A stretch of 64,000 bases of DNA from Pseudomonas putida (GTDB taxonomy: Bacteria > Pseudomonadota > Gammaproteobacteria > Pseudomonadales > Pseudomonadaceae). Shown in pieces: positions 6,225 through 57,183 of the stretch. Within the stretch, counting starts at the first letter, position 1; every line of letters starts with the position of its first letter. A model generated the notes under the pieces. The model had not been told where the DNA came from. It saw nothing but the letters and a program-made list of their open reading frames with translations, and ran no database searches. Both the position numbers and the translations under genes were made by a program. The stretch is taken from NCBI RefSeq assembly GCF_026625125.1, contig NZ_CP113097.1:1-64000 (forward strand). The letters are read 5' to 3'.

Positions 6225-6229
6225 TCAGG
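6225..6229. repeat. Target-site duplication TCAGG, left copy
   Basis: The five bases between the gyrB stop codon and the transposon end are repeated exactly at 57179-57183 beyond the other end. A 5-bp duplication is what Tn7-family transposition leaves. Confidence 0.9.
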
Positions 6230-6277
6230 TGTAGGTTCACAGAAAAGCTGCACGCTTTCACAAATAGATGACCGGCC
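6230..6277. other. gyrB-proximal transposon end with TnsB-like repeats
   Basis: The terminal TGTAGGTTCACA is followed by two related segments, TTCACAGAAAAGCTG (from 6236) and TTTCACAAATAGATGACC (from 6256). These resemble the TTCACAAAATAGGTGAT segment at the other end. Repeated 20-22-bp segments in both ends are the expected layout for TnsB binding. Confidence 0.75.
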
Positions 6278-6310
6278 GGGCTTCAACCATGGCCCCTGTC
6301 GGTCACCATC

Positions 6311-6336
6311 AAGCCCGCCTTCGCGGGCTTTTTTTT
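6311..6336 (+). terminator. Intrinsic terminator just inside the transposon end
   Basis: An 8-bp stem AAGCCCGC / GCGGGCTT with a CTTC loop is followed by a run of T. It lies about 80 bp inside the element and would stop gyrB transcription before it enters the tns genes. Confidence 0.85.
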
Positions 6337-7060
6337 GCCTGGAATTCCTGCCGGGGCGCCCTACTCCGCTCATTGGAAAATGATGCAGATGGGGGGATTT
6401 GAGGAAGTGATTTGATGGGGCGCTGGAAGTGCTGAGAGGGTCGGCGGGCGGATCTGAGCAGCAGAGAGATTGAGAGGACTTTAAAACTAATATTTGAACA
6501 CCTTAATAGTTAATTAAGCGTACGTGTTAAGTATTAATTTGAACAATTTAGTATGGAAATGGAATTTGGTGGAAGTTGCCATTTTGGATTTTTTGTAGAT
6601 TTCGAAGGGATGTTGGAATAAGATCTATGACCAACTTTTCCGCTTTGCACTGAAGATTTTCAGCCAAATCAGCTGTTTGAAGCGAGAGCTTCAGACCTGA
6701 TCCAAATTGCTCCAGCGATCACGAAGTGGCCGTTTAGAAATAAAGAGAGCAAGCCGATTGCTTTAGATTCTGATCAGTCATGAGAGTCATGACCAATGAG
6801 AGAAAAGGAGACCTGAAAATGTAGAAAAACGCGATCAATCCCGAGAGGACTGACCGCGCTTAGCGAAGCAGACTTGCGTCCTCAGAACCCGCAATGTCTG
6901 CTTTTTCGAAGCGACTGTCAATCCTCTCCCATTTTTTCGACCTTAGCGAGGTTACTCGACGGCACAGTGTTGCCTGTCGAAAGGCCTCACTTCGCCCGCC
7001 CTGCGCCTTGATTTTTTGGCGCAGCGTCGGCGCTCGTTTCGAGATTTTCGGAGGTGTTTC
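6337..7060. other. AT-rich non-coding stretch before tnsA
   Basis: No convincing gene is seen in about 720 bp. The stretch 6480-6600 is clearly richer in A+T than its surroundings. A well-formed ribosome-binding site AAAAGGAG at 6803-6810 precedes an ATG at 6819 that is followed directly by TAG, so only a start-stop unit is present. This may be leader or promoter DNA for tnsA or a relic. Confidence 0.5.
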
Positions 7061-7699
7061 ATGACAGTACGAAAGGTGGTCACGCGGCGGTCCAACCATT
7101 ACCGCGGCTACTTCCCATCGCTCAAAAATAAAAAGCCTGTGCCCTGGGAGTCCCAGCTCGAAGGCGCTCTTTTTCGGCTTCTTGAGCTGTCTCCTGCGGT
7201 CATCGGCTACGTCCCGCAGCCCAGTGAGGAACGTGTTCCATCGCTCCAGGGCTACTTCAAATATTACCCAGACGTACAGGTTTTCCTCGCGGATGGGCGC
7301 GAGTGGTGGTTTGAAGTGAAGCCTCACGACCGACTGAAGATTGCCAGCGTCAGGCAGCGACTGGATGCCGCTGAGCGCTACTTCAACGCCACTGCCCGTA
7401 ACTTTTCGGTGATCACTGAAAAGTTAATTGAAGCTGAACCCCTGGCTACCAATCTTAGAAGGCTGATGTATCACCGGCGCGGTCCAGAGCTTTCGCATCA
7501 GGCGTTGGAGGAGGTAATGGCGACCTTCAACGAATGGCCGCCTATGACCGTTGCAGATCTGCTCTACGTGGTTGGTGAGGGGAAAGCCTGGCGCTTGTTA
7601 GGCCTTGGGGTGGTGGGCATTGACCTTGATAGGTCAATTGACACTGACTCCCCGGTCTTCCTGCAAGGGGGGCACCGTCATGCAAACCTTTTCCCTTAG
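7061..7699 (+). CDS. tnsA: TnsA-like transposon endonuclease
   Basis: Heteromeric transposase subunit of the Tn7 family. TnsA cuts the 5' ends of the element so that, with TnsB, transposition is cut-and-paste. The product is 212 residues with a PD-(D/E)XK-type core: E30 and E34 in WESQLE, D71 in YYPDVQ and EVK at 85-87. The ATG at 7061 is chosen over an upstream in-frame start because TTCGGAGGTG lies just before it. It overlaps tnsB by 20 bases, which suggests translational coupling. The gene is transcribed away from the nearby transposon end. Confidence 0.9.
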   Translation: MTVRKVVTRRSNHYRGYFPSLKNKKPVPWESQLEGALFRLLELSPAVIGYVPQPSEERVPSLQGYFKYYPDVQVFLADGREWWFEVKPHDRLKIASVRQRLDAAERYFNATARNFSVITEKLIEAEPLATNLRRLMYHRRGPELSHQALEEVMATFNEWPPMTVADLLYVVGEGKAWRLLGLGVVGIDLDRSIDTDSPVFLQGGHRHANLFP

Positions 7700-9638
7700 G
7701 GTGAAATTGGTCGTCATCGTTCGTGGCGTACTGATGGTGCTTGAGAAGAGGCTTATTGACCGGAAGCTGCTCTTTTTCGATGAGCTTGGTGAGCCCACGA
7801 AGCTATCCGAGAAGGAGTTCTATGAGGCCTACGAGAAGCGCGAGATCGAGATCTCCGCTGATCAGCCATACCTTGGGAGGGTTCCGTATGTGCGGAACGT
7901 CCCTCCAGATATTTCATGCTTCCCCAAAAAACATGGAGATGAGGCATTGCGTCGACGCAAGTATCTGGACGACCTAACTAAGCGCGGTAAATACAAGCTA
8001 CCGGGTGACGAAGACATGATCAAGAAGCTTAGAGATATCGCCAAAAAGATTGGGGATGCGTGCGCACCCTCGGTTTCCACTATTCGACGTTGGGCAGCCA
8101 AATACATTGGCCAGAACGTAGTAAAGCTTATCCCTCAGCATGCCAAAAAGGGTCGGGCTGCCGCGATACAGGGAGAGCTCGAAGTTATTCTTGAAGGGGT
8201 GATTAATAAAACCTACCTGCAGGATACGATTCCAGCGGTCAGCGTGGTCGTTTCAGAATTCGAGGATCAGATAAAAGAGAGGAACAAAAGTCGTTTGCCT
8301 TCGGATCAGCTCAAGATCCCAAGCGGAATGACTGTCCGAAGGTACATCGCCAAGCTGGATCCGTACCTTGTGGATAAGGAGAGGCTCGGAAAACACGCAG
8401 CAGACAAGAAGCACCGTGTTGCGGCGGGTGTCCTACGTGTCCATGAGATTTTGGAACGTTGGGAAATTGATCACACCTTGTTGGACGTCCAGCTTGTGGA
8501 TGAAACCTCGGGGCTGTGCATTGGGCGCCCCTATCTGACGATCGTCCTCGACCGCTTCTCTCGAATGGTGATGGGATATTTGCTCCACCTGTCGGCGCCA
8601 AATACGGAAACCGTGCTTCGTGTGATCGAACGCTCAATCCGTCCAAAAGCCGAATTGCTGAAGCGCTTTCCGAAAGTGAGAAATGAATGGTGGGCACGTG
8701 GGCTGCCGGCTCGAATAGTCCCAGACAACGCAGCGGAATTTCACGCGGGCGATCTCATCATGGGATTCAACGAGTTGGGTATCGAGATCATGTATCCCGC
8801 TTCAAGGGCCCCTCAAAGGAAAGGTGCCGTCGAACGCTTTTTCAGCACACAGAACCTGGGGCTTATCCACAACCTCCCGGGTACCACCTTCTCGAATATC
8901 CAGCAGCGTGGCGATTACGACTCGGAGAAGAATGCATGTTTCACGCTCCCTCAATTGGAGGCGGTGGTAGTGAAATGGATCGTCGATGGTTACCACCAGA
9001 CTCCTCATCGGGGGCTGGACAACAGAACACCGGCTCAAGTCTGGGGGACTAGCGAGGCGAACCATGTCATCAGCCTTCCCGTCGACCTGGACTCGTTGGA
9101 GTGCATTCTGGCCAAGCGGGCCTCGGTGAAGGTTCACCATTACGGCATCGAGGTTGCCAAAGTGGGCTACCACTCTACGGAACTTGCTGAGCTCCGTATG
9201 CGTTTGGCAGACGGAGAAAAGGTAAACGTCCGCTATCGAGACGAAGCCGGGCACGTTTGGGTTCACGACCGCTTCAGAAACTTGTTCTTCAAAGTGCCCG
9301 CCAAAGATGAGCGAATGGCCGGTAAGAGCAGGGAGGTGTGGAAGGCTGCCGAGAAAGCGCTGCGAGAAAAATATAATGAGCAGCCTAGCTTCGAGGCTAC
9401 GCACAGGTGCTACCAGGAAATTATGGAAGATGCAGACGAGGCCCGCCGTTCGCAGACGCTCAGAAAACGACGCGCAGCTGCCATAGCGAAAATCGACAAG
9501 GAGGGTCGAGTGACCGAAAGCACGCCTCCACCCAAGGTACTCGCTGAAGTGGAATGGACCGGTGACTCTATTCCTAACATTCCGCCAGCAGCCTTCAAGG
9601 TCTCGGTTCGTCGCCCTGCTGGGAGTTCTAAGCCATGA
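7680..9638 (+). CDS. tnsB: TnsB-like DDE transposase
   Basis: Retroviral-integrase-fold (rve/Mu-type) transposase that binds the ends, cuts the 3' strands and joins them to target DNA. The product is 652 residues. The catalytic triad is readable as D264 (WEIDHT), D349 (VPDNAAEF) and E385 (KGAVERFF), with the D-x35-E spacing typical of the family. An N-terminal helix-turn-helix region and a C-terminal tail that would contact TnsA/TnsC are expected from the family. The ATG at 7680 follows AAGGGGGG and overlaps the end of tnsA. The stop overlaps the start of tnsC (ATGA). Confidence 0.93.
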   Translation: MQTFSLRVKLVVIVRGVLMVLEKRLIDRKLLFFDELGEPTKLSEKEFYEAYEKREIEISADQPYLGRVPYVRNVPPDISCFPKKHGDEALRRRKYLDDLTKRGKYKLPGDEDMIKKLRDIAKKIGDACAPSVSTIRRWAAKYIGQNVVKLIPQHAKKGRAAAIQGELEVILEGVINKTYLQDTIPAVSVVVSEFEDQIKERNKSRLPSDQLKIPSGMTVRRYIAKLDPYLVDKERLGKHAADKKHRVAAGVLRVHEILERWEIDHTLLDVQLVDETSGLCIGRPYLTIVLDRFSRMVMGYLLHLSAPNTETVLRVIERSIRPKAELLKRFPKVRNEWWARGLPARIVPDNAAEFHAGDLIMGFNELGIEIMYPASRAPQRKGAVERFFSTQNLGLIHNLPGTTFSNIQQRGDYDSEKNACFTLPQLEAVVVKWIVDGYHQTPHRGLDNRTPAQVWGTSEANHVISLPVDLDSLECILAKRASVKVHHYGIEVAKVGYHSTELAELRMRLADGEKVNVRYRDEAGHVWVHDRFRNLFFKVPAKDERMAGKSREVWKAAEKALREKYNEQPSFEATHRCYQEIMEDADEARRSQTLRKRRAAAIAKIDKEGRVTESTPPPKVLAEVEWTGDSIPNIPPAAFKVSVRRPAGSSKP

Positions 9639-10594
9639 ACGCCATCAATCTGTACGAATGCTACGAGCATGGTGAATACAGCTTTACGCTCCGCGATCGT
9701 TTTATTCACAGCCCTCAAGTCGAGCGAGCGTTGACGCGACTAGGCGATATCCACGGCGATAGTCGGCGTACCAGAGCAAGTAAAGGGTTGCTGATCCAAG
9801 GTCCAAGCGGAGTGGGCAAGAGCACATTGGTCAAGGAGTACATTCGGTCATTGGAGGAATTGGAGAGCCATGACCCACAGAAGCGGACAGTTCTGTTCGT
9901 CGAGATGCCTTCGTCTCCAACCAAAAAGAACCTGGCAGCAGCCATTTTGGCAGAGCTGAAGGATCCCTTCGCAGAGGCACGAGGACATTCGGCAGAGGTT
10001 AAATTTGCGCGAGTAGTCCTGCTGCTGAAGAACCTTGGCGTGGAGATGTTGGTCCTCGATGAGGCGCAGCACCTGGTCGATTATCGTCGTAATGGTGCGT
10101 ATGAGGCAGCAGACTGGATCAAGAGTCTGATGAATGAAACCAGTATCGCGTTTGTTCTGATTGGGCTGAAGCGCACCGAAAATCTCCTGCTAGCAAACGA
10201 GCAACTGCGACGCAGGTTTTCGGCCACGGTGGCATACGATCGCTTCACCTTCTCCGCTAATACGTCTCTTCATTTCGTGATGTTGTTGCAGGCAATCGAG
10301 GGCGAACTGCCTGTTCAAACCATCAGTTTTGTAGAGCCAGCGATGATTAAACGCTTCTACCTGGCTTCCTATGGATTGATCGACTACCTCATCAAGATTG
10401 TGGACAGGGCTGTTTGGCTGGTTCAAGTCCAGGACCTTGTCGGGATTGAACTTCCTGTGCTGGCCCAGGCTTTTGAAGACGAGGTTTGGAGCTACGCCAC
10501 CGAGGATCGAAACCCCTTCAGTGCGAGCTTCAATTTCCAGCCTCTGTTCGGGAAGCGGGAGCCGTTTGAGACGTTCGAAGAGAGCAGTACCTGA
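9635..10594 (+). CDS. tnsC: TnsC-like AAA+ transposition regulator
   Basis: ATP-dependent regulator that links the target selector (TniQ/TnsD) to the TnsAB transposase. The product is 319 residues with Walker A GPSGVGKST (56-64) and Walker B MLVLDEAQH (about 138-146). It is shorter than TnsC of Tn7 itself and closer in size to TniB-type proteins. Its start overlaps the tnsB stop by 4 bases, so tnsABC are translationally coupled. Confidence 0.92.
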   Translation: MNAINLYECYEHGEYSFTLRDRFIHSPQVERALTRLGDIHGDSRRTRASKGLLIQGPSGVGKSTLVKEYIRSLEELESHDPQKRTVLFVEMPSSPTKKNLAAAILAELKDPFAEARGHSAEVKFARVVLLLKNLGVEMLVLDEAQHLVDYRRNGAYEAADWIKSLMNETSIAFVLIGLKRTENLLLANEQLRRRFSATVAYDRFTFSANTSLHFVMLLQAIEGELPVQTISFVEPAMIKRFYLASYGLIDYLIKIVDRAVWLVQVQDLVGIELPVLAQAFEDEVWSYATEDRNPFSASFNFQPLFGKREPFETFEESST

Positions 10595-10603
10595 CGGCCA
10601 AGG

Positions 10604-10623
10604 GCCGGGCTTATCGGCCCGGC
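10604..10623 (+). other. GC-rich hairpin between tnsC and tniQ
   Basis: A 7-bp stem GCCGGGC / GCCCGGC with a six-base loop lies just after tnsC. It has no adjacent T-run, so it is not a standard terminator. It could reduce expression of tniQ relative to tnsABC or protect the upstream message. Confidence 0.5.
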
Positions 10624-10669
10624 TCTACTCCCCTGATTTTTATGTCTTCGATTTCATGGATGTGTAGGA

Positions 10670-12586
10670 ATGTTTGGTCTTTTAATCAACCCACGACCAC
10701 ACCAAGACGAAAGTCTTTTGGGGTACCTGCAGCGCCTGGCGAAAGCCAACGGATTACCCAGAAAGGAACTGCTCACCGCCTTTGCACGAGCCGACGAGAC
10801 CGATGTTGCGGACTGGCTGCAGATGATGGAAGGACCACTGAGCTGGCCTGCGGTATCTGCTGAGTTTCGTGATCCAAGGCCCAAGGGGGTCAAGTTATGG
10901 ACGACTCATCACGCTCGTTACTGTCCGATCTGTTTGGGCGAAGCCGGTTATTGGAGAGAAAGCTGGGGCTTGACCCTGGTTACGACGTGTTCTGTCCACG
11001 GCACTGAACTCCACGGGCGGTGCCCCAACTGTCTGAAGGAAACCGATCCAAGCGCAATGAGTGCGAATAGTTGCCAAGCGTGTGGCACCTCATTGAGTGG
11101 GACCAATTTTGAGATCGCGCCGGCGAGTGATACGGCCGCCTGGCTCACCTCTGGCTTTGAAGATAGGTTTTACGCCGACTCGTTGCCAGCTGACGCGGGA
11201 TTGGCGGCCCTCACCTACGAACAGTTTCACGAGTTGTCATCGCGTCTCGCTGTCAGAAGTTTGCCTACGGAAAGAACCCAGCCGCTGAAGGTTGCTGATT
11301 CGGGTTCGCTAGAGATATCGCGGCTTATGGCAAACGCGGCGGGCGTGGTTCTCATGAACTGGCCTCTCGCATTCAGAGAACTGCTGAGTGGCCTCAAGGC
11401 AGTCCATTCCGATAACGAACATTGGACGCTCAGCAGATCGTTCGGCCCGATATACCACGACATCCACCGTGATCTGGATGACTCTTGTTTTGACTTTCTT
11501 CGTCGAGAGTTCGAATCATTTCTGCAGCATGCGTGGGAAGCACCGTTAGCGAAGCGAAATCGCAATTTGAGTGAGGAGACGATTGAGAGACATCGTTGGG
11601 TGTCGTTCGATTCTGCTGCTGAAGCTTGTGGTCTCGGGGTATCAGTCATAAAACGCCTTCATCAGGAGGGACAAATCGCCTATCGGGAGAAGGTCCATGA
11701 AGATCGAGTCTTTACGGTCGTGGACCTGGATCATTTGAAGGCAATCTCGCAGCATCTCCAGGGCGTGGCTGATATGAAAGAAACCTCGACTTTGCTAAGC
11801 CTCTGTCGCAATCGGGTTAGGCAGCTGCTAGCTGGTGGTACCCTCCAGTTCTTTGGTGGAGAACCGCGCCCAGGCGAAAGGTGGCTGATTGACTGCCGCT
11901 CGATCAACGAATTGATTGATGAGAAGCTGCCTACCAGCTCTGACCAGAGCCTGGTGTCGATCAACTACTTGGCCAAGCATTCTCTGCCCAAGGGGGGTGG
12001 GTTGGTCGAGTTGGTTCAGGCAATACGTGCAGGTGAACTTCGCGCTTACGGCCCAGCTGAGAATGGCTCGGTTGCGGTAGGGGCGTGGTTACTCAAGCCG
12101 CAAGATTTTGCAGCGTGGCAACAAGCCCGAGCTGAGAACAAGAGTCCGGTCTTTCCCGGCCTGTCGGTAGTCAAGGCTGCTGCGCTGTTAGGCGTCAAAG
12201 AACAATGCGCATACGCGTTCGTTCGACTGGGTCTGCTATGGAGCACTGCTGTCGAACGAGGCCGGCGTACGCAATTGATGGTTAAGCCTCAAGCCATCGA
12301 CAGATTCAGGCGTGGCTATATCTTGGGACCGGAGATTGCGGTGTATTTGGGGAAGTCGACCAGGGAGGCGTTCAAGCACCTTTGGGAGGCCAGGTTTCGC
12401 CCCGTTGCGGGGCCATCCATTCCAAACGCGGCTTGCCGGCAGTACGTTTGGGTAAGAAGCAAAAAGCTGATCGATTACCTCGCAAGTGAAGCCGCCCAGA
12501 TCGACGATCCTGAAGCCATCACGTTTTTATCCACACCGATCGCTCAGCCTCGTGATTGCCGATTCAGGCATGTGGGATCAAGATAG
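10670..12586 (+). CDS. TniQ/TnsD-like target-site selector
   Basis: Sequence-specific DNA-binding protein that recruits TnsC to the attachment site. The product is 638 residues. The N-terminal TniQ zinc-binding region is clear: CPICLGEAGYWRESW (85 onward), TCSVHGTEL, GRCPNCL, then CQACG near 135-139. The long C-terminal part contains two or more helix-turn-helix-like segments (around 315-345 and 495-525), as expected for a TnsD rather than a short TniQ. It is the only TniQ protein seen here, so it probably recognises the 3' end of gyrB (inference from where the element sits). It is separated from tnsC by 75 bases with a hairpin. Confidence 0.88.
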   Translation: MFGLLINPRPHQDESLLGYLQRLAKANGLPRKELLTAFARADETDVADWLQMMEGPLSWPAVSAEFRDPRPKGVKLWTTHHARYCPICLGEAGYWRESWGLTLVTTCSVHGTELHGRCPNCLKETDPSAMSANSCQACGTSLSGTNFEIAPASDTAAWLTSGFEDRFYADSLPADAGLAALTYEQFHELSSRLAVRSLPTERTQPLKVADSGSLEISRLMANAAGVVLMNWPLAFRELLSGLKAVHSDNEHWTLSRSFGPIYHDIHRDLDDSCFDFLRREFESFLQHAWEAPLAKRNRNLSEETIERHRWVSFDSAAEACGLGVSVIKRLHQEGQIAYREKVHEDRVFTVVDLDHLKAISQHLQGVADMKETSTLLSLCRNRVRQLLAGGTLQFFGGEPRPGERWLIDCRSINELIDEKLPTSSDQSLVSINYLAKHSLPKGGGLVELVQAIRAGELRAYGPAENGSVAVGAWLLKPQDFAAWQQARAENKSPVFPGLSVVKAAALLGVKEQCAYAFVRLGLLWSTAVERGRRTQLMVKPQAIDRFRRGYILGPEIAVYLGKSTREAFKHLWEARFRPVAGPSIPNAACRQYVWVRSKKLIDYLASEAAQIDDPEAITFLSTPIAQPRDCRFRHVGSR

Positions 12587-12642
12587 TTAGCACGCTTTCT
12601 TTCTTGATTGCTAAAATCATCGAACCCATTTTGGAGAATCTT

Positions 12643-13002
12643 ATGTCCCGTCTCGCTGAATTCCGCCTGCTCGAACAACAGCTCGCAGCCCAACTGGCGG
12701 AGCTGGAAGCGCTGAAAAATGACTCTGCCCTGAAGCAGGAAATGGAATTTGAAACGAAGCTGCGCAGTTTGCTCAACGAGTATGGCTACGGCCTGCGCCA
12801 AGTGGTGCTGATCCTCGATCCGCAAGCGGTGGCTTCCACTGATATGGCCCCAAAAACCTCTCGGAAACCACGCGAAGTGAAGGTCTACAAGAATCCACAC
12901 AGCGGAGAGGTTGTTGAGACCAAGGGTGGTAATCAGCGTACGCTTAAGGCCTGGAAAAACGAGTATGGCGCTGAGGTAGTCGAGTCTTGGCTCGCCAATT
13001 GA
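12643..13002 (+). CDS. MvaT-family H-NS-like silencer (TurC-type)
   Basis: Pseudomonas counterpart of H-NS: a small nucleoid protein that binds AT-rich DNA and silences acquired genes. The product is 119 residues. An N-terminal coiled coil (about 1-55, starting MSRLAEFRLLEQQLAAQL) is followed by a linker and a C-terminal DNA-binding domain (KPREVKVYKNPHSGEVVET, then GNQRTLKAWKNEYG). The ATG at 12643 follows TTGGAG. It lies just after tniQ, where it could moderate cargo or tns expression. The resemblance to TurC, the P. putida paralogue encoded near gyrB, is from memory of that genome. Confidence 0.88.
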   Translation: MSRLAEFRLLEQQLAAQLAELEALKNDSALKQEMEFETKLRSLLNEYGYGLRQVVLILDPQAVASTDMAPKTSRKPREVKVYKNPHSGEVVETKGGNQRTLKAWKNEYGAEVVESWLAN

Positions 13003-13550
13003 TTGCACTGCAGGCGGCTTCTGGCACGAGATGAATCGTGGTGCGCCCCGAATGCAAATTCCCATTCTGGGGCGTGACGAAATTTTCTGCGGGTGGTGGT
13101 GACACACAGTTTATGCGCATTAAATAGAGGTCCACTTCAAAAAATGGACTCTCCAAAATGCGGAATGCTCTCGTCTCAATCTCAGTGAACACCATCGCAA
13201 GCCTCCTGACTGCGCTTGTGCTTCACTGGATCACCCCTCCTCTTTCCGACCTCTCCATTCAGCCAATCACGGCCTCAAACTCTGGATCCAAGAGCTCTTC
13301 GTGCTCTTCGTAGATGAGAAATCTGGACCAGACAGCACGTTTCTGAACCACCCCATCAGAGCAAGCGTTCCCCTGGATTGAGCTATCTGGTGACGATTCG
13401 TTGAGTTTCTTCTCACTGCTAGGAAGAGCTCTGATTAAAAATTCGTGCTTCCTCAGAGGCTTAGCGATGGTGTCTGTAGAGGCTTTTCTGGAATGACGAG
13501 TAAGCTCCTGATGGAGGCGTTTTCTGCACTCCATTCCTCACGGGGACCGC
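13003..13550. other. Non-coding stretch downstream of the silencer gene
   Basis: About 550 bp with no gene I can support. A 91-codon reading frame on the minus strand (13259-13534) lacks a properly spaced ribosome-binding site and any recognisable family. Confidence 0.4.
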
Positions 13551-13603
13551 TTGTCAAATCGAAAGGCCCTGCTATACAGTTCTTGTCAAAGGATTTGTCA
13601 AAT
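13551..13603 (+). promoter_or_regulatory. Promoter with three TTGTCAAA repeats
   Basis: TTGTCA (13551-13556), a 16-bp gap and TATACA (13573-13578) form a good sigma-70-type promoter about 70 bp before the TIGR04255-family gene. The octamer TTGTCAAA occurs at 13551, 13583 and 13595. One copy overlaps the -35 element and two lie near the expected transcription start. This could be an operator for the HTH protein encoded in the same operon (inference). Confidence 0.55.
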
Positions 13604-13648
13604 GATGTAGAATCCGGTCCCTCGTTGGGGAGCGGTGGAGGAGTTAAC

Positions 13649-15171: not shown

Positions 15172-15173
15172 TT

Positions 15174-47845: not shown

Positions 47846-47863
47846 TCATCCTGTCAGTTCGCA

Positions 47864-49182: not shown

Positions 49183-50454
49183 TCAGCGAGCGCCGGCAGT
49201 TGAGCCGACTTCGCCATAAACCCTTTCCACCTGCGCACGCGCATTGGTCGCCGCTGCCAACGATTCGAGGTATTGGCCACGAGCGACGATCAAGGTGCGC
49301 TGGGCATCCAGCACTTCGATGAAGCCGAATTTGCCCATCTCGAAGCCGCGGGTTGCGGTCTCTACGGCTTGTTGGGCTGACGGCAGAATGGTCTTGTCGT
49401 AGGACTCGACCTCCTGCATTGCGGTGGACCACTGGTTCAACGCGGTTTGGGTTTCGGTGCGCAGGCGCAGCTCCACAGCATTGCGCTGGTCTCGGGCCTG
49501 ATCGGCACGTCGAGAAGCGGAAAGAATGTTGCCTTGGTTACGATCGAACAGCGGCAGAGGCATAGACAGGCCCACAGTGTTGACCCGCTCGCGCACAGAG
49601 CGGTCGTACTGGCTGCCTACGCTGACAGTAAGATTCGGGATACGCTGAGCTTTCTCTGAACCGAGCGAGGCATCGCTCTTGTCGATCTGCACCACGGCCT
49701 GGCGCATTTCTGCGGTCTGATCGAGCTTTGCCAGCAGCTCTTCAGTCTGCGGTGGCAGCCCCGGGGAGAGGGTTGGCGATTCGAGTTGATCAAATACCGT
49801 GACTGAGCTCCCGGTAATTTGCGCGAGCTGCTGGTAAGCGGTCGCCTTTTCCGTTTCGGCACGTCGAACTTGAAGCTTGGCTTCGGCCAGTTGCACCTGG
49901 GCGCGGGTGGCCTCTACTGGGGACGATTTACCTGCGCGAACACGGCCATCGACGATGCGGAGACCGCGCTCAGTCAGTTCGAGAGATTGCTTGGCCAGAT
50001 CAAGGCCTGTCTGGGCCCGCAACGCGGCGTAGAAGGCTTGCACGACGTCTGCACGCAGTCCGTTCACGCGACGGTCTAACTCCAGCTGTGCGGCGGTCTG
50101 CCCGAATGTGGCGACGTCAACCCGAGCCCCCCGCTTACCGCCCAGCTCAAGGGTTTGGCTGAGCGAAACAGTTGTCTGGCTGGTGTTACGACGGGTGTCT
50201 TCCACGTCGTACGAGATTGTGGGGTTGGGGATAAGTCCGGCCTGCTTGCGAGCGCCGTCAGCGATCCCAATCTCTTGCCTGGCTGCAGCTAGATCAGGGT
50301 TGGCATCCATGGCCGTCGAAAGCGCCTGGGGCAAGCTGATGCTTTGGGCAAGGGCTGCAGGTGCCATCAATCCAGAGATGACTGCACAGAGTGCAGCGAT
50401 CTTCCAGGGCGAGACGGAGGTCTTGGATAAGACATTGCGGTTATACCGGGGCAC
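49183..50454 (-). CDS. czcC: Outer-membrane efflux channel CzcC
   Basis: TolC-type channel of 423 residues with a signal peptide (WKIAALCAVISGLMAPAALA) and two OEP repeats. The GTG at 50454 is preferred because GAGGA lies eight bases before it; an open frame to 50541 adds an unlikely N-terminus. A metal box (50579-50594) lies 125 bp upstream. First gene of the czcCBA operon, divergent from oprD. Confidence 0.9.
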   Translation of the reverse strand: MPRYNRNVLSKTSVSPWKIAALCAVISGLMAPAALAQSISLPQALSTAMDANPDLAAARQEIGIADGARKQAGLIPNPTISYDVEDTRRNTSQTTVSLSQTLELGGKRGARVDVATFGQTAAQLELDRRVNGLRADVVQAFYAALRAQTGLDLAKQSLELTERGLRIVDGRVRAGKSSPVEATRAQVQLAEAKLQVRRAETEKATAYQQLAQITGSSVTVFDQLESPTLSPGLPPQTEELLAKLDQTAEMRQAVVQIDKSDASLGSEKAQRIPNLTVSVGSQYDRSVRERVNTVGLSMPLPLFDRNQGNILSASRRADQARDQRNAVELRLRTETQTALNQWSTAMQEVESYDKTILPSAQQAVETATRGFEMGKFGFIEVLDAQRTLIVARGQYLESLAAATNARAQVERVYGEVGSTAGAR

Positions 50455-50578
50455 TTTGATGGTCCTCGTGCACAAACTTCGATAAAGCTTGGCGAGAACG
50501 CCGAAACAGCTGCCAAGCCCCACTTGATTAGGTGATGGCACTCTAATGAGCGGTAGCTATCAGAGGGGTGGCTGGAAA

Positions 50579-50594
50579 ATTACAATTTCGTAAT
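50579..50594. promoter_or_regulatory. Metal-regulator box before czcCBA
   Basis: ATTACAATTTCGTAAT matches ATTACA-N4-TGTAAT at 11 of 12 defined bases, 125 bp before czcC. Confidence 0.7.
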
Positions 50595-50704
50595 AAATCC
50601 CTGTAATGCCCGTAAATACTGCGATTCCCAACCCGGCTCTATGATTTCGTTACAAGCAACGGAGATGGCAACCACGCGGTGCGAAGGCGCCAAATAACGG
50701 GCAG

Positions 50705-50720
50705 ATGACGAAATTGTAAT
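50705..50720. promoter_or_regulatory. Metal-regulator box before oprD
   Basis: ATGACGAAATTGTAAT keeps a perfect right half and the 4-bp gap, 139 bp before the porin gene and on the opposite side of the divergent region from the czcC box. Confidence 0.55.
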
Positions 50721-50858
50721 TTTCCTATCACCCTCCCGTTATCTTCGGCCTGCAAATATGAGCTCGCGCTACGCTAGGCGCGCCGCCGGGTCAGAACAAT
50801 TAACGACACCCGCGCAGGTAAACATAATAAAAACTGCCGTGAATCAAAGGAGCATCGG

Positions 50859-52202
50859 ATGAAAATCAAAGTACCACTGTATTTGGCGGCAGTTTCTGCG
50901 CTGTCTGGAAGCTATGCTATTTCGGCACAAGCTGAAGACAAGCCAGAGGGCTTCATTGAAGGCAGCAGCCTTACAGTGCTGAACCGTAACTTCTATTTCA
51001 ATCGTGATAACCGCGACAGCACTGCCCCTACTTACAACAGTGGCAAAGGCAATACCAATGGCTACTCCGAAGCCTGGGCGCACGCAATCATCAGCAAATT
51101 CAACTCTGGGTTTACCCAGGGTACAGTGGGCTTTGGCGTTGATGCCTTCGCCATGATCGGCCTTAAGCTCGACACCGGTGATGGGCGCAACGGCGGCCGT
51201 AGCTCCTTCGACGTGCTGCCTGTTGATAACAAGGGCGAAGCTCGCGACGAATACACCAAGGTCGGCGGCGCAGCCAAAGTTCGCTTGTTCGATACCATCG
51301 TGAAAGTGGGTGATGTCTTCCCATCGACCCCGGTCGTTGCATCGGGTGACTCGCGACTGTTGCCGGAAAGCTTTCGCGGCGTGACCGTTGAGAACACCAG
51401 CATCCAAGGCCTCACCCTGCAGGGTGGTCGTCTGCATGCGATGAGCCAACCGGTCTCTAGCAACCTTAACGACAACTTCGTGACCTTCTACGGCGGCCCA
51501 GTCAACTCGCCATGGATCGGCTACGGTGGCGGTGATTACTCGATCAACGACAACTGGACCGTGAGTGCCTATGCAAGCCAGTTGAAAGACGTCTGGAACC
51601 AGTACTACGCCGGTACCAGCTTCGCCTACCCCTTGAACGACGATCTGGCGCTGATCGGCGGCTTCAATTACTACAAAGCCGTGGATGAAGGTAAGCGACG
51701 CCTGGGCGAATTTGACAACAACATCTGGAGTGCCAAGGTCGGCGTACGTTACGGTGCTCACACCCTGGCCCTCTCGCATCAGCGCAACAACGGCGACGAC
51801 GACTTCGACTACCTGCGTCAGTCGGACTCGATCTTCGTCGACAACTCCATCCAATACAGCGACTTCAACTCGCCGAAAGAGCGTTCATGGATGCTGCGCT
51901 ACGACCTGAACTTCACCAGCTACGGCATTCCAGGCCTGACGTTCATGACCCGCTACGCCAGAGGCTCGGGCGCGGATTACTCGAACGCTAACCAGTTCTA
52001 CATGCGCACTGACGACAACGGCAACCCGCTCGACAATCAGAAGCGCTGGGAGCGTGACGTCGAAGTCAAATACGTTGTCCAAACCGGCCCGGCAAAAGAT
52101 CTGTCCTTCCGGTTGCGCCAGGCAACCACGCGTGCCACTGCTTTCGAATCGGATTTGGATGAAACTCGTGTAATCATCGAGTACCCGCTTTCGATTCTTT
52201 AA
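50859..52202 (+). CDS. OprD-family outer-membrane porin
   Basis: A 447-residue porin with a signal peptide (KVPLYLAAVSALSGSYAISAQA) and the OprD family layout (GFIEGSSLTVLNRNFYFNRD, KERSWMLRYDLNFTSYGIPG, a C-terminal beta-strand). Members take up basic amino acids, small peptides or aromatic compounds; the substrate cannot be read here. It is divergent from czcCBA with its own metal box. In P. aeruginosa metal regulators repress oprD, so a link to metal control is plausible. The terminator lies at 52308. Confidence 0.9.
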   Translation: MKIKVPLYLAAVSALSGSYAISAQAEDKPEGFIEGSSLTVLNRNFYFNRDNRDSTAPTYNSGKGNTNGYSEAWAHAIISKFNSGFTQGTVGFGVDAFAMIGLKLDTGDGRNGGRSSFDVLPVDNKGEARDEYTKVGGAAKVRLFDTIVKVGDVFPSTPVVASGDSRLLPESFRGVTVENTSIQGLTLQGGRLHAMSQPVSSNLNDNFVTFYGGPVNSPWIGYGGGDYSINDNWTVSAYASQLKDVWNQYYAGTSFAYPLNDDLALIGGFNYYKAVDEGKRRLGEFDNNIWSAKVGVRYGAHTLALSHQRNNGDDDFDYLRQSDSIFVDNSIQYSDFNSPKERSWMLRYDLNFTSYGIPGLTFMTRYARGSGADYSNANQFYMRTDDNGNPLDNQKRWERDVEVKYVVQTGPAKDLSFRLRQATTRATAFESDLDETRVIIEYPLSIL

Positions 52203-52307
52203 TTCGCTAACGGACCAGTTATTCATTAGCTGATCCTGTTAGTAAAACGAGCATTACGAATTCACCTTGAGTGGCTTAAGTGCTCCTTTGGTAAAAGGTG
52301 GATATTT

Positions 52308-52332
52308 GGCGCCCTTTGGGCGCCTTTTTTTT
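52308..52332 (+). terminator. Terminator after oprD
   Basis: GGCGCCC-TTT-GGGCGCC followed by eight T, about 105 bp after the porin stop. Confidence 0.9.
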
Positions 52333-52334
52333 GC

Positions 52335-52484
52335 CTAAAATTCAAGTAAGCGTTCGATTGTACGCATCGCATGCCGGTGAAGTTCATGGCTACACCAATG
52401 ACCAGTCTCCTCGATGTGAGCAACCTCGCCGTCATCTGAGCGGAACGAAGCCAGTACAAAGAAGAAAATAACCCAATACTTCAT
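52335..52484 (-). CDS. Small exported or membrane peptide (49 residues)
   Basis: The minus strand from ATG at 52484 reads MKYWVIFFFVLASFRSDDGE and ends HELHRHAMRTIERLLEF. A hydrophobic N-terminus is followed by a charged, His-rich remainder (WCSHELHRHAMR). AGGTG precedes the ATG by ten bases. It lies between oprD and the orphan czcR. The function is unknown. Confidence 0.55.
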   Translation of the reverse strand: MKYWVIFFFVLASFRSDDGEVAHIEETGHWCSHELHRHAMRTIERLLEF

Positions 52485-52578
52485 AAGGTCAAGTCACCTG
52501 CTGGAGAGAGGGTCCGCAACTGTCAAACCCAAACCGCGACAAGATATACCGCCAGACTATCAACTGTATTACCTAAAA

Positions 52579-52594
52579 ATTACAAATCCGTCAT
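52579..52594. promoter_or_regulatory. Metal-regulator box before the orphan czcR
   Basis: ATTACAAATCCGTCAT has a perfect left half and a degenerate right half, about 97 bp before the gene at 52691. It may give autoregulation or control by the other CzcR. Confidence 0.5.
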
Positions 52595-52690
52595 TTGAGC
52601 CCCGGCACGCTCATTTTGATTTACCATCCCTTTCAATAATGCCGGCGCGCGTGCGCGGTTAATTGCTCAGTGATATCGAGACAAAATCCC

Positions 52691-53365
52691 ATGCGAATTC
52701 TGGTAATTGAGGATGAAGTAAAAACTGCGGAGTATGTGCGTCAAGGTCTGACGGAGTGTGGCTATGTCGTAGATTGCGTCCACACCGGATCAGATGGATT
52801 ATTCTTGGCCAAGCAGCACGAATACGAGCTGATTATTCTCGATATAAACCTCCCAGAGATGGATGGTTGGCAGGTTCTTGAGTTGTTGCGCCGTAAAAAT
52901 TGCCCTTCCCGCATCATGATGCTGACGGCGAGAAGCCGGCTGGCGGATAAGGTCCGGGGGCTAGAGAACGGCGCAGATGACTACCTGATCAAGCCATTTG
53001 AGTTCCCTGAGCTGTTGGCCCGGGTTCGCGCCTTGATGCGCAGGTCGGATCACCCCGCATCCGTAGAGGTCATTCGCGTCGCTGACCTGGAGCTTGATCA
53101 GAGCCGGCACAGGGCGTTCAGGGACGGTCAGCGAATTGATTTGACCACAAAAGAATTCGCGTTATTGCACTACTTGATGCGTAACACCGGGGTGGTACTG
53201 AGCCGTACGCAGATTATTTCTCAGGTTTGGGATATGAATTTTGACTGCGACACGAACGTTGTAGAAGTGTCGATTCGAAGACTCAGAGCCAAGATAGATG
53301 ACCCATTCGAGACCAAGCTGATACATACGCTTCGGGGCGTAGGGTATGTGCTTGAAAAGCGATAA
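52691..53365 (+). CDS. Orphan CzcR-type response regulator
   Basis: A 224-residue OmpR-type regulator with receiver (VIEDEVK, D51 in LIILDINLPEMDG, DDYLIKPFEF) and winged-helix domains (WDMNFDCDTNVVEVSIRRLR). It is strikingly similar to the CzcR at 22940, including the identical stretch DDPFETKLIHTLRGVGYV. No kinase gene follows, so it must be phosphorylated by another kinase such as CzcS or act unphosphorylated. The ATG at 52691 gives the usual MRIL start. Confidence 0.88.
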   Translation: MRILVIEDEVKTAEYVRQGLTECGYVVDCVHTGSDGLFLAKQHEYELIILDINLPEMDGWQVLELLRRKNCPSRIMMLTARSRLADKVRGLENGADDYLIKPFEFPELLARVRALMRRSDHPASVEVIRVADLELDQSRHRAFRDGQRIDLTTKEFALLHYLMRNTGVVLSRTQIISQVWDMNFDCDTNVVEVSIRRLRAKIDDPFETKLIHTLRGVGYVLEKR

Positions 53366-53483
53366 TTGCCAAGCTCTCTAGGTACCGAAAATTGGCTGTA
53401 CACTCCCGTCGCTTGCGAGCTTGAGGTTTCTGTTTACGATCCGCGGCGCTGATTCCTCACCCAACAAATGAGGTAGGCTGTAC

Positions 53484-53807
53484 ATGAGGTATAGCATTGA
53501 TTATCAGCAGGTTTCGCAAGGTCAATCGCATGCCAGGATTGATGCCTGTCCAGCTGACATTATCTTCAACAGCGACCATGGCTTAGCACTTATTCCGTGC
53601 GTCGGCGATGTTATCAACCTTCCCTCTACGGCGGTCAAAGAAGGGGTTTGTGGCATCGTCAGATCAAGGATTTTCAATTATCTAGGAGGTCCTGAAGATC
53701 TGTACTGCCACGTCAACATTCTCGTTGAAGAAGCTGACATCAATTTCGGAAATCTCATCTCGGAATACATGCGCAATCAGGCACGCGCACGCTCGCCTTC
53801 TTCATAA
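53484..53807 (+). CDS. Protein of unknown function
   Basis: A 107-residue soluble protein (MRYSIDYQQVSQGQSHARID...). A predicted beta-rich middle (GLALIPCVGDVINLP, GIVRSRIFNYLG) might be a small barrel. I recognise no family. AATGAGGTAGG lies before the ATG. It stands alone between the orphan czcR and a convergent membrane-protein gene. Confidence 0.55.
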   Translation: MRYSIDYQQVSQGQSHARIDACPADIIFNSDHGLALIPCVGDVINLPSTAVKEGVCGIVRSRIFNYLGGPEDLYCHVNILVEEADINFGNLISEYMRNQARARSPSS

Positions 53808-53893
53808 AGTCGAAGGCGGGCCTGGCCATTAATGGTTATTTATGACTGAGGATTCAACAGAGCGGGCGTCTACTGAGCACCAGAGGTGGATAG

Positions 53894-54436
53894 TCACAGC
53901 CTAGTGGCTGAACGAGGTACTGCTGGTGTGCGCAGAGCTGGACTCATTGTTTTTTGAATGGCGCATTGCAGTATAAAGAAGTACATAATCCCTGAGGCAA
54001 ATACGATAGCAGACAGAGAAACCATTTCTAAATCTAAGACCCCAGAAATCATATACTGCTTAATCGTGATAGATCCCAGGATGATTCCGGTGCAGTACAT
54101 GACACCCGTGAATTGGTTTCCCATAAAACTCAGTATGCCGCTGAAGGCATTGTTTGCGCTGAGTAGCACTGCCTTTAAAATGGTCCATCCGAGAAGTGGT
54201 AAAAATGCCTTAATCATGAAGGCAAATAGCATCGACGATGCAAATAGCTTTATCGGCGTTTCTGCCCACGGCTTGATGGTACCGTCTATTTCAACGCCGG
54301 TATACAAGATGACATTCAGAACAATTGCCATGACGGTGCATATGCCGAGGCGTATCATTTCCCGCTTAAGAGGGGCCATCATTATCACTGCGTGAATCTT
54401 GCGTCCGATGAATCGATTTAGTCCTTGGGTCGACAT
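53894..54436 (-). CDS. Multi-pass membrane protein of unknown function
   Basis: A 180-residue protein with about four predicted membrane helices (near 30-48, 62-90, 105-125, 137-158). It ends in a basic tail. No transporter signature is visible. The gene is lower in G+C than its metal-resistance neighbours, which suggests a different origin. Confidence 0.55.
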   Translation of the reverse strand: MSTQGLNRFIGRKIHAVIMMAPLKREMIRLGICTVMAIVLNVILYTGVEIDGTIKPWAETPIKLFASSMLFAFMIKAFLPLLGWTILKAVLLSANNAFSGILSFMGNQFTGVMYCTGIILGSITIKQYMISGVLDLEMVSLSAIVFASGIMYFFILQCAIQKTMSPALRTPAVPRSATRL

Positions 54437-54624
54437 TTCTCTTCCTATGCTCTCGGGGATGACGCTATTTTAACGTTGTAAGAATGTCATGCTTTTACCC
54501 GATGAGAGGTGACGCTTCAACAGTTCTGAATTGCGCAGGGGGTCTCATGTCTTTCCCAGGTCGGATATCTTGCTGAAAAATCCTCATCTATCTGCGGGGC
54601 AAAGATGCGGCCACCCCGCCGCCG

Positions 54625-56091
54625 TCAGAGCTCTGGAGGACTGGTTGCTGTCAGCAACTCATCGAGTGACGGAACCTTAGCGTTTGCACTGAGGACGAGT
54701 GTCCTGGATCGGAGTATGGATACTTCATAGAAGGATTCGCACTCGACTCGTCCATTCACTTCTCTCCAGTGGGTGACTTCTGGTATCAGTTCGTTAGGCA
54801 CCGGATGTAATGCCATAGGATTATGGAAGACCTCCACTTCAGCAGACCACGGCTCGTAGCCATACTGCGGCCAGAGCTGACCGTAATCGCTGGACGCTAC
54901 ATCCAACAAAAATGGGATACCTCGTGATGCACCTGGAGAACGGTCGAAAAACTCACCAAACCGCAAGTATCGGTACCCGTCTAGATGAGCTCCACCTGAA
55001 ATCGGCACTCGGCTGAGCTTTGAGACTGTGCAGGCATTGGTGAAAATGACCGCTGAAAGATGGGCATTTTCCCTTAGCGTAAATAGGCCGTTGGGGCGCC
55101 CTGATAGCAGAGATGTCTCTTCCTCCACAGTTATCAGCTGCATTCCACGATGCGCAGATGAGTGAACTGAAAAGCCATAGAGATAGCTGATGAGCGACTC
55201 CCTGCTCCACAGCATTGAACTGGGCGCATGGAAATCGGCTAAGGCCAGAATGAGCGGCTTACCCTCCACGTGCGGTAGGGATTCGTAACGCTTGTCCAAT
55301 TTGTTTTGGATGGTCCTCGCAAACCTTTCTGCAGCCGCTCCAAAGAAGCGCTCATGTCGGTCAGCTGGTGGGGGGACCGGCGAGGCGCCAAAATGCTCAT
55401 ACCGCTCTTCCGGGTTGGCTGTCACTGCTTCAACCCAGGCCTCACCTCCCAGCCTATTCTCGATATGAAAATCGGGTGATTCTTTAGGCTGGGTGACAAA
55501 GAGTCCCTGCTCACGAAAAATCGCTAATAGGTGGGCCTCCCAAAGGCGGGTGTGAAAATTCTCAGTCTGGCAATCGGGAACCCAATTTCTGTCTGGGGAT
55601 GGCAGTGCGAGATACAGTTGATTGAGCGCCCACGCCCCAATACGGCGGCTTGGATCAAATAGTGATTTGAACACCACGCTTGGTGTGCGCTTACCCATTC
55701 TGCTTAGAGGAGCACGTCGTCGTTCGCCTGAGGGGAGTGGAAGCGGATGGGCTTGGGTACTGAGAAAATGGCTGATTGAGGCGCGGGCTTCGGACTCGCC
55801 AGTGGTGCACTCACTATGACTGAGGAGCACCCACACGCTATCGACACGACGCCGCAAGGTGACAATTCCGAAACTGCCGGAATGGATATTTCGGGTTAGA
55901 GCGGCACAAGAAATTCCGTCCTCACTAAGCCATGCCCCTACTGGCGGGCTGTCCCCAAACCCCAACCCTCGTGGAAGCGACAAAGCGATTAGATCGAACA
56001 TCGGCGCAGCAATTTCTTTCATTCGCTGATCTCGGCAGCCGTCAAAATGCATTCCATCAATGCCTCGGAGCGTGCCCGCCGGCGATGGCAT
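54625..56091 (-). CDS. Large protein with possible PD-(D/E)XK nuclease core
   Basis: A product of up to 488 residues. The central segment RLWEAHLLAIFREQGLFVTQ, PDFHIENRLGGEAWVEAVTA has the layout of a restriction-like nuclease fold: an early Glu, then P-D-F, then W-V-E-A, but with Val-Glu-Ala in place of the usual (D/E)-x-K, so activity is doubtful. The rest is unfamiliar. The start is uncertain: ATG at 56091 lacks a good ribosome-binding site, while ATG at 56052 or 56022 would also fit. It follows the gene at 56104 by 12 bases on the same strand. Confidence 0.55.
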   Translation of the reverse strand: MPSPAGTLRGIDGMHFDGCRDQRMKEIAAPMFDLIALSLPRGLGFGDSPPVGAWLSEDGISCAALTRNIHSGSFGIVTLRRRVDSVWVLLSHSECTTGESEARASISHFLSTQAHPLPLPSGERRRAPLSRMGKRTPSVVFKSLFDPSRRIGAWALNQLYLALPSPDRNWVPDCQTENFHTRLWEAHLLAIFREQGLFVTQPKESPDFHIENRLGGEAWVEAVTANPEERYEHFGASPVPPPADRHERFFGAAAERFARTIQNKLDKRYESLPHVEGKPLILALADFHAPSSMLWSRESLISYLYGFSVHSSAHRGMQLITVEEETSLLSGRPNGLFTLRENAHLSAVIFTNACTVSKLSRVPISGGAHLDGYRYLRFGEFFDRSPGASRGIPFLLDVASSDYGQLWPQYGYEPWSAEVEVFHNPMALHPVPNELIPEVTHWREVNGRVECESFYEVSILRSRTLVLSANAKVPSLDELLTATSPPEL

Positions 56092-56103
56092 CGGTGGAGG
56101 TAC

Positions 56104-56553
56104 CTATTGAAGAAGGGGGCCTTGTTCCACCAGGACATCTCGGTTGGTGAAGATGGTCTCAATGGTTGCAGCCTCGGCAGCCACATGAGTCTTTCGCGTG
56201 ATCTCTTCAAGGGCCAGTTCGAGCCGGTAGTCTTGGAAATACTCGTACAGCTTTTCAGAGCTCTCGGATATCTCCTCCCCACCATTCTTTGCGAACAAGA
56301 TGTGGATGATCGCTGCGAGTGGAAGGGAGATGTCGAGATCCTTCTCTTCTGCATCTGACTCCGAGTTCAAACCGTCGAAATACCTCTCCAGATGATTCTG
56401 GAGCTCCTCAAGCCAGAACTGAGATAGGTTGCTAGGTAGGGAGCTTTCAGGCCCGGCCAGAAGGACTTCATCTCTGAATCGGGCCAGCAGATTGGGGGTT
56501 GCCATGGAGGACCTCACGATTAGATTTGAGAGCAACTGGTCAGCATAGTCCAC
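56104..56553 (-). CDS. Small helical protein paired with the putative nuclease
   Basis: A 149-residue, acidic, mainly helical protein with no family that I recognise. GAGGTGG precedes the ATG at 56553. It is upstream of and almost touching the gene at 54625-56091, so the two are probably co-transcribed and may form a functional pair. They are the last genes before the transposon end. Confidence 0.55.
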   Translation of the reverse strand: MDYADQLLSNLIVRSSMATPNLLARFRDEVLLAGPESSLPSNLSQFWLEELQNHLERYFDGLNSESDAEEKDLDISLPLAAIIHILFAKNGGEEISESSEKLYEYFQDYRLELALEEITRKTHVAAEAATIETIFTNRDVLVEQGPLLQ

Positions 56554-57042
56554 CTCAAGATGACCACCTCCTTGACGCCCATCCTGGTGCTCCTGAGCCT
56601 CAGACGAGTGAATCGCCCCGAAAACTGTAGATAGATGCCGTTAGCTACCTTTCTTCAAGGACAGCTTTGGATCGATAGCGGCCTTCGTGGAGGTTGGTGT
56701 CTACGGGGCCGGTTTAGTCATTCTGAATCTCCGGTTTCACCTCCGTGAGGCCGGCCATCGTCATGCATCAGATCTTGATTGACACGCGTGCCGCCTTGGA
56801 TAGCCTTGCAATTGAGGGCTGCAACTGCGCATTTGTCGGGCCTGGGTACCAGCATGAGCCCCCCCGCAATTCTGGCAGCAGAGGAAGCTGGTTCCTCTGA
56901 AGTAGTGACGACGGGCATTGCCAGTCGGATTCTGAACCCAAGGTCGCCAGACTGGGAGCTAAAGGATCGCTGCGACTACTCCTCATCCCTTACCGAAAAG
57001 TCACGCGTCGGTCGTAAAGGGAGAACACACTGGCCCTTTCCA
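56554..57042. other. Non-coding DNA near the distal transposon end
   Basis: Several short overlapping frames exist (for example 56718-56918 minus and 56779-57072 plus). None has a ribosome-binding site plus a recognisable product, so I annotate no gene here. Confidence 0.4.
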
Positions 57043-57178
57043 GGCCAATCAACTTTTGTGATTGGTGAGTAGGGCTTTCTCGGCTTTTCTGTGAAAAGCA
57101 CCCCTTCATTTCACAAAAAAAATGGCCAAGCTTCCAATTTCACGGGGTCTGGCCTATCACCTATTTTGTGAACCTACA
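57043..57178. other. Distal transposon end with TnsB-like repeats
   Basis: Reading inward from 57178 on the minus strand: TGTAGGTTCACAAAATAGG (site to 57151), TTTTCACAGAAAAGCCG (57073-57097) and ATCACAAAAGTTGATTGGCC (57043-57062). Two further TTTCAC...GGCC copies on the plus strand lie at 57109-57127 and about 57138-57154. The dense array, longer than at the gyrB end, is the asymmetry seen in Tn7-family ends. Confidence 0.75.
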
Positions 57179-57183
57179 TCAGG
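57179..57183. repeat. Target-site duplication TCAGG, right copy
   Basis: Exact repeat of 6225-6229 directly beyond the terminal ACA of the element. Confidence 0.9.

Follow-up and report, generated by a model that had tools for sequence, protein, structure and literature searches.

What kind of DNA is the metal-resistance region that follows gyrB at the start of a Pseudomonas putida chromosome, and how did it get there? We analysed the first 64 kb (positions 1 to 64,000, called the window in the following) of a 5.86-Mb chromosome assembled as a single contig (NZ_CP113097.1; G000 among the genomes compared, which are given by such numbers where they have to be told apart). A previous reading of the sequence alone (the sequence-only reading) had proposed that the czc, cus and cop genes of this region belong to one Tn7-like transposon, and that metal islands are usually listed gene by gene instead. 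The latter fits the part of Wu et al. 2010 (PMC3056050) considered here. On the evidence of its sequence the interval 6230-57178 (50,949 bp), called element A in the following, is a single self-contained Tn7-like transposon. TniQ-guided Tn7-like insertion behind gyrB, together with stacking into arrays, is very probably the best explanation for the locus as a whole.

The borders of element A are sharply defined. Read outward from gyrB, the sequence runs TCAGG, TGTAGGTTCACA, the body of the element, TGTGAACCTACA and again TCAGG. TGTAGGTTCACA occupies 6230-6241 and its exact inverse 57167-57178, and each 12-mer is found once in the window. No other 12-bp inverted repeat in the window has its copies separated by more than 1 kb and flanked by identical 5-bp sequences; in 20 control windows, obtained by shuffling 2-base blocks, such pairs averaged 0.05 per window, a single pair being present in one shuffle. 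The stop codon of gyrB ends at 6224, such that A is inserted 5 bp downstream of it. The motif TTCACARAWAR, which we picked from the ends of A and which is likened to a TnsB site by its sequence, occurs (at most 1 mismatch) twice in the first 200 bp and three times in the last 200 bp, compared with a density of 0.012 per 200 bp in the interior.

The gyrB-proximal part of A contains the transposition genes (Table 1). Profile (Pfam) scans covered 40 of the 147 open reading frames (ORFs) of at least 90 amino acids (aa) in the window, 39 of them in A. The tnsB product matched the integrase-core and Mu-transpos_C models below their curated cut-offs; its solved relatives are PseTnsAB and the TnsB of Tn6677 (E 4e-46 to 4e-42). 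For TniQ the predicted structure suggests C-terminal winged-helix domains. A therefore joins TnsA, TnsB, TnsC (TniB) and TniQ with TGT...ACA ends that carry repeats and with a 5-bp duplication, as expected for a Tn7-like element. Both the ends with their TCAGG duplication and the unity of the czc/cus/cop interval, as claimed by the sequence-only reading, are thus upheld. No TnsE family was found among the scanned ORFs of A and no Cas family among the 39, a minimal CRISPR array not having been searched for separately. Rfam at gathering scores returned one match, to a group II intron only.

The view that a tyrosine integrase or conjugative transfer brought in the island, its TGT/ACA ends being incidental, could appeal to the edge gene that the consulted part of Wu et al. 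2010 (PMC3056050) calls an integrase. However, the edge genes here are those for TnsA, TnsB, TniB and TniQ, no tyrosine integrase family was detected in the 39 scanned ORFs of A, and matching 5-bp duplications flank all 15 elements tabulated below. A recombinase with an att core at both ends was not seen in relatives lacking tns, for which no special search was made. We rejected such an origin on gene content and duplications and consider it scarcely conceivable.

Comparing the ends with those of other TnsABC elements, as the sequence-only reading had suggested, revealed identical ends with different duplications in other genomes. The TniQ of A was matched in 29 of 199 Pseudomonas genomes; many of these matches are distant, and four of them, the own one among these, show full-length identity of 100%. 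When species genomes were scanned for TniQ, 13 loci were obtained, including P. parakoreensis, P. lactis, P. laurentiana and P. ceruminis. In several other species the protein is 100% identical, in A-type elements of 27-64 kb with changed cargo; among these relatives the tnsABC-tniQ core is constant and the cargo variable. Both ends lie on one contig in G045 (43,110 bp, duplication ATTGG), G072 (64,047 bp, TCCGG) and P. lactis (26.9 kb, AGGTA), and on separate contigs in P. parakoreensis (GGCGT) as well as in P. putida HAI-2, G077 and P. ceruminis (all TCAGG). At a locus of P. sp. NBRC 111124 (L115) the distal end of A has no duplication and is joined to sequence that lies about 170 bp deeper in the normal flank, corresponding to an adjacent deletion.

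The position behind gyrB is shared by other elements. Three end families were found there: A, B (the type of the element that follows A, see below) and C, whose end reads TGTAGGTGGGCAAAGTTA and which was obtained with both ends at gyrB in G325, G037 and G058. We tabulated 15 gyrB elements (7 A, 5 B and 3 C, own A and B included). All have perfect 5-bp duplications, comprising nine sequences, with the ends of the 12 A and B elements set by the end motif and the right ends of the 3 C elements by requiring the duplication. Left out of this tabulation, for want of a sound or fitting right end, were G004, G012 and G277 as well as G395, G237, G276 and G201, the last four being C- or A-type starts without a sound partner end in the stretch examined. 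Among 42 unique proximal junctions, the terminus follows the gyrB stop at 4-7 bp in 40, including L152, which in our reading is an empty site. Searching 398 sampled Pseudomonas genomes with a pattern for the gyrB end and an adjoining terminus gave matches in 83, and the reversed pattern, used as a control, gave none. Read by eye, 69 of the 83 matches have an element-type end, 11 are empty and 3 unclear; the pattern misses some occupied sites, e.g. the A-type end at gyrB in G004. The 3' end of gyrB thus looks like an attachment site that is used by at least three end families.

The TniQ proteins of these families are highly diverged (A-B 15-22%, A-C 16-20%, B-C 26-31% identity). That three lineages, 15-31% identical, use a common site could mean that the elements are attracted not by TniQ but by host context, in that the site is an exposed terminator region close to the origin. 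Against this, distance and orientation to the gyrB stop are fixed despite differing duplicated sequences, and the elements examined each have one long TniQ of 617-668 aa. We therefore regard attraction by host context as very unlikely.

Beyond A the sequence does not return to the chromosome. A second Tn7-like element, B, starts with TGTCGATGGGCACATTAAGTGTCGC at 57184; its first 12 bases recur in inverted form, TGCCCATCGACA, up to 68412, such that B comprises 11,229 bp and extends beyond the window. The chromosomal flank begins at 68413, with a hairpin-plus-T sequence after the third TCAGG that in our reading would be the original gyrB terminator. For genomes lacking A the sequence-only reading had predicted a clean site of gyrB stop, TCAGG and flank. 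The junction itself was met exactly, as gyrB is joined to base 57184 in such genomes, and G128 and G105 match the joined flanks of A over 244/246 bases (89 and 88%). What had been taken for flank, however, is element B, so the join of gyrB, TCAGG and 57184 is itself an occupied site. A wholly empty gyrB site in the own species was not found among the genomes compared. The predicted right junction was recovered in P. putida HAI-2 (G215), where A ends exactly at 57178 and is followed by TCAGG and TTGTTCTC, the sequence that follows B in the own genome, with no B in between.

In the own genome A and B abut exactly and TCAGG occurs three times. The shared TCAGG and the exact abutment might indicate a compound island that arrived in one piece, with B as the distal part of its cargo. 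But at this site A is present and B absent in HAI-2, B-type elements at gyrB without A occur in other species (G128, G105 and G099), and A and B each possess their own ends and hairpin. HAI-2 and the occurrence of B without A led us to reject a single compound island, which we take to be extremely improbable. Further arrays consist of B then C in G128, the latter starting two bases after the duplication, of A then another A-type end in P. ceruminis, and of A then a decayed A-type end in G119 (by eye). If newcomers always land beside gyrB, B would have arrived first and A second in the own genome, and in HAI-2 either A was acquired in a separate event or B has been lost. The empty site L070 (G163) and the outer flank in G119 resemble decayed A-type ends, such that part of the gyrB terminators may be left over from earlier elements.

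In the own genome B contains no tns genes. B-type elements at gyrB with tns genes were found in G128 (36,325 bp, TCCAG), G099 (25,957 bp, TCAGG), G126 (24,057 bp, AGGCC) and G087 (26,084 bp, CCAGC). When the B-type TnsB of G128 was compared with the own genome, the best match was the TnsB of A (27%), followed by two partial matches, at 1.34 and 1.95 Mb, that are weaker. Given the lack of a close relative, B is probably unable to move alone here. The two weaker TnsB-like frames (G000:C1:1339730-1340956, 656 aa, 26%; 1947676-1948317, 687 aa, 31%) may be other such transposases. In the stretch of G277 B-type right ends lie at 44808 and 50392, of which only the outer one fits the left duplication ATTCC, hinting at a nested or merged element.

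Insertions at this site fall between gyrB and its terminator. Most gyrB-proximal ends carry a terminator-like hairpin 60-110 bp inside the element. Read from gyrB, a hairpin called by our detector lies within 200 bp of the proximal end in 13 of the 15 elements, compared with 0 of 15 for the distal end read inward, 1 of 15 for the distal end read outward and 4% of 3,000 random interior pieces. Hairpins were also found in 39 of the 42 proximal junctions (L152 included), and within 150 bp past the distal duplication in all 15 elements, where for the own A, G119 and G128 the hairpin is that of the end of the next element or relic. The argument for terminators comes from a hairpin position shared across families, not from any single match. 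From this position the hairpins may act as replacement gyrB terminators.

Ends, duplications, position, polarity, hairpins, array and gene content are read directly from the sequence and suggest the following course of insertion, for which we infer the binding of TniQ to gyrB as well as a present activity of the element. TnsB would bind the repeats at both ends of A, which would be excised by TnsA and TnsB. TnsC would connect A to TniQ, whose C-terminal winged-helix array would bind the 3' end of gyrB. A would then enter 4-7 bp after the gyrB stop in one orientation, producing the 5-bp duplication. In this way gyrB would remain intact and gain a replacement terminator from the proximal end of A. 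Each newcomer would land beside gyrB and displace older elements outward, such that arrays arise; here insertion of B followed by that of A would have left the three TCAGG copies.

A number of observations weigh against this course. The TniQ model has a mean predicted local distance difference test (pLDDT) score of 56.7 and is fairly confident only beyond about residue 310, and a fold search with the whole model gave no match at E 0.001 or better. Two of the 42 junctions lie 12-13 bp past the gyrB stop. Two A copies have no duplication, the first one on p716811-VIM and that of NBRC 111124. For G012, the B-type right end located 7.6 kb away disagrees with the left duplication. A separate terminator scanner called one site at the proximal end of A (shuffles 0.8) and none at the proximal end of B or at the chromosomal hairpin after B. 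Moreover, A-type ends also occur on conjugative plasmids: a second A-type element on p716811-VIM (187347-214466, duplication TGTCG) is located close to a traN gene. In P. laurentiana (L080) A lies off gyrB within an elaA-like acetyltransferase gene, the frame having been read by us. gyrB is consequently not the sole target. Tn7 enters plasmids and other places by its second pathway; a gene for such a second pathway was not identified in A-type elements.

Element B contains a sequence that resembles its target. About 140-195 bp into B a segment shares 35 of 51 bases with the 3' end of gyrB, in the reading frame of that gene; the best of 3,000 random pieces had 32. In 1.05 Mb (both strands) of 16 elements, for which we set the end of G277 at 44,000 of its stretch, scores of at least 33 were obtained only in B of G000, G128 and G277, on the sense strand. 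Elsewhere G105 scored 35, while the scores of G082 and G064 (27-28, same register), G087 and G192 (26) and G099 and G126 (26-27) are within chance. We rejected the idea of a common Pseudomonas repeat: a 26-base core was found in 3 of 10 genomes, once each. A looser form was found in 6 of 199 genomes, again once each and in all six at B-type ends.

In 10 of the 16 B ends seen, a C-type left end is located about 240-400 bp inside, behind a short tandem repeat where this was read. The core AACCGCAT precedes it exactly in nine of the ten and as a variant in the tenth (G136); G099, G126, G076, G093, G255 and G012 have neither C-type end nor core. The C right terminus CCACCTACA was absent from the 13 B stretches searched (G136, G076 and G075 excluded), among which G105 and G082 are cut by contig ends and those of G192, G093, G255, G064 and G012 may run past the element. 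One could imagine that B carries a selected copy of the gyrB attachment sequence, at which C-type gyrB-seekers dock, becoming cargo inside B rather than neighbours of gyrB. The Wadjet genes start right after the C-type end and would here have arrived via docking. If true, a Tn7-like transposon would serve as a landing pad that collects its competitors. We consider this rather doubtful. A small reading frame, or the fossil of an old gyrB-element junction, is a reasonably probable origin of the segment: it is readable as a short frame, no C right end was found in the 13 stretches, and strong gyrB likeness is restricted to 4 of the 10 B ends scored. Such an origin has to contend with the position of the segment just before the C-type end and with its conservation, since it is kept better than any other stretch when G277 is compared with three further B ends (79-88%, compared with 75-76% for the terminus, 61-70% for the terminator and 37-42% for the spacer).

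The cargo of A comprises several metal-resistance groups (Table 1) and, next to the distal end, a match to PD-T7-1, such that defence as well as metal genes are carried. An mvaT/mvaU-type xenogeneic silencer gene follows tniQ. Of the records whose TniQ is at least 88% alike, 15 distinct ones have it 3' of tniQ, a count from which three further rows were dropped as duplicate records and two HAI-2 rows because they stop before the gene. Two plasmids with different cargo also hold it, with an insertion sequence (IS) between tniQ and the silencer on pVIM. It is missing in six relatives with TniQ 27-54% alike. The silencer looks like a core gene of the subgroup of A, judged from these records, and perhaps keeps the element with its cargo quiet. 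Among 5 pattern matches in viral contigs, no MvaT relative was present. The trio of genes at 13445-16043 was considered as a set of TnsE-like core genes and set aside, its first gene being present in 5 of the 15 distinct records with near-identical TniQ. This gene was matched in 7 of 199 genomes, three of these being own or strong matches. By annotation the cassette is also contained in the second A-type element of p716811-VIM (NZ_MN310372.1, 204848-207240). A group II intron piece (RF00029, minus strand) lies at 44331-44402 within A, and a frame at 26511-27299 that combines IS66 TnpB with the start of an IS66 transposase is probably a remnant. For B, PADLOC and Pfam identified JetA, JetB, JetC and JetD, i.e. 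a Wadjet type I system; its further genes encode a small DUF1232 protein, a helix-turn-helix protein, a TOTE-type primase-helicase and a 101-aa protein.

Table 1. Features of the window in order of position, with the evidence for each assignment
Feature	Position	Strand	Evidence
gyrB, 3' end the inferred attachment site	3804..6224	+	ORF; stop-to-terminus distances
TCAGG copy 1, target duplication	6225..6229		sequence
Element A, complete Tn7-like transposon	6230..57178		ends, duplication, relatives with different duplications
Two TnsB-site-like repeats, gyrB-proximal end of A	6236..6267	+	motif count
Intrinsic-terminator-like hairpin, proximal end of A	6311..6330	+	detector and separate scanner
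tnsA	7016..7699	+	PF08722, E 1.5e-6
tnsB, DDE transposase; true start probably near 7680	7605..9638	+	profiles, solved relatives
tnsC / TniB ATPase	9635..10594	+	PF05621, E 4e-35; VchTnsC, E 4e-23
tniQ, 638 aa, TnsD-sized putative target selector	10670..12586	+	PF06527, PF12728; predicted model
mvaT/mvaU-type xenogeneic silencer	12643..13002	+	NF041859, E 2e-51
Three-gene cassette (TIGR04255 protein, then two unknowns)	13445..16043	+	profiles
czcD-type exporter and two-component pair	20479..25029	+	profiles
cusF, cusABC-type and two-component genes	28693..37818	-	profiles
copAB, cytochrome c and DUF411 genes	38012..42591	+	profiles
czcABC-type RND efflux	44678..50541	-	profiles
PD-T7-1-like phage defence gene	54625..56091	-	PADLOC PDLC04073, E 3.5e-62
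Three TnsB-site-like repeats, distal end of A	57085..57172		motif count
TCAGG copy 2, target duplication common to A and B	57179..57183		sequence
Element B, part in window; ends at 68412, then TCAGG copy 3	57184..64000		ends TGTCGATGGGCACAT, 11,229 bp
Terminator-like hairpin, proximal end of B	57245..57260	+	detector; missed by separate scanner
gyrB-3'-end-like segment in B	57323..57378	+	35/51 bases to gyrB
Short tandem repeat of 8-bp units	57383..57424	+	sequence
C-type left end TGTAGGTGGG in B, no partner right end found	57425..57470	+	sequence
Wadjet jetABC (jetD next, partly outside the window)	57634..63240	+	PADLOC, Pfam

With this analysis, exact transposon ends replace the loose bounds of a metal island near the origin. 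It points to the gyrB 3' end as a site common to divergent Tn7-like families, as glmS is for Tn7, and offers a fast means of delimiting metal-resistance, Wadjet and PD-T7-1 cargo across many Pseudomonas genomes. Insertion tools may profit from TniQ proteins whose target is defined, and the locus offers a testable case of transposons that stack, supply replacement terminators and possibly trap each other. While the Tn7-like kind of element is known, no report of a gyrB attachment site was found in the open literature searched, an earlier mention in subscription papers being possible. A copper Tn7-like element of P. syringae was reportedly described by Aprile et al. in 2021. The word gyrB is absent from the main texts, supplements not covered, of Faure et al. 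2023 (PMC10293859) and Benler et al. 2021 (PMC8649781).

Two described P. putida regions resemble A. 'Region 1' of strain W619 (7447-75941) likewise lies near the origin, is described by its cop/cus/czc genes and has an 'integrase' delimiting it (Wu et al. 2010, PMC3056050). It differs from A in being accounted for gene by gene; the word 'gyrB' does not occur in the text of that paper, and neither ends nor a duplication are given in its consulted portion. We would take it to be an A-type element. In strain HB3267 a Tn7-like transposon (B479_00025-00140) is described whose low locus tags suggest the same place, judged from the tag numbers. Unlike A its cargo serves amino-acid and betaine transport, and the part of the source considered (PMC4731212) does not state the target site.

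Canonical Tn7 uses a TnsD-type TniQ protein to insert at attTn7 behind glmS in one orientation, with a 5-bp duplication and tnsA beside the target gene. A is like it in possessing TnsA, TnsB, TnsC and a TniQ of TnsD size, in its duplication, in its orientation with tnsA towards the target gene and in a site just after an essential gene. It differs in lying behind gyrB instead of glmS, 4-7 bp after the stop in elements of its kind, and in the lack of a TnsE family in its scanned ORFs. The nearest solved TnsB and TnsC proteins, in turn, belong to type I-F3 CRISPR-associated transposons (Tn6677, Tn7016). Their TniQ is also the nearest, though weak, relative of that of A, a short stretch of it being the sole solved sequence relative of the 638-aa protein. 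Unlike these transposons, A has no Cas gene in the 39 scanned ORFs, and its TniQ is long with predicted C-terminal domains of a DNA-binding type.

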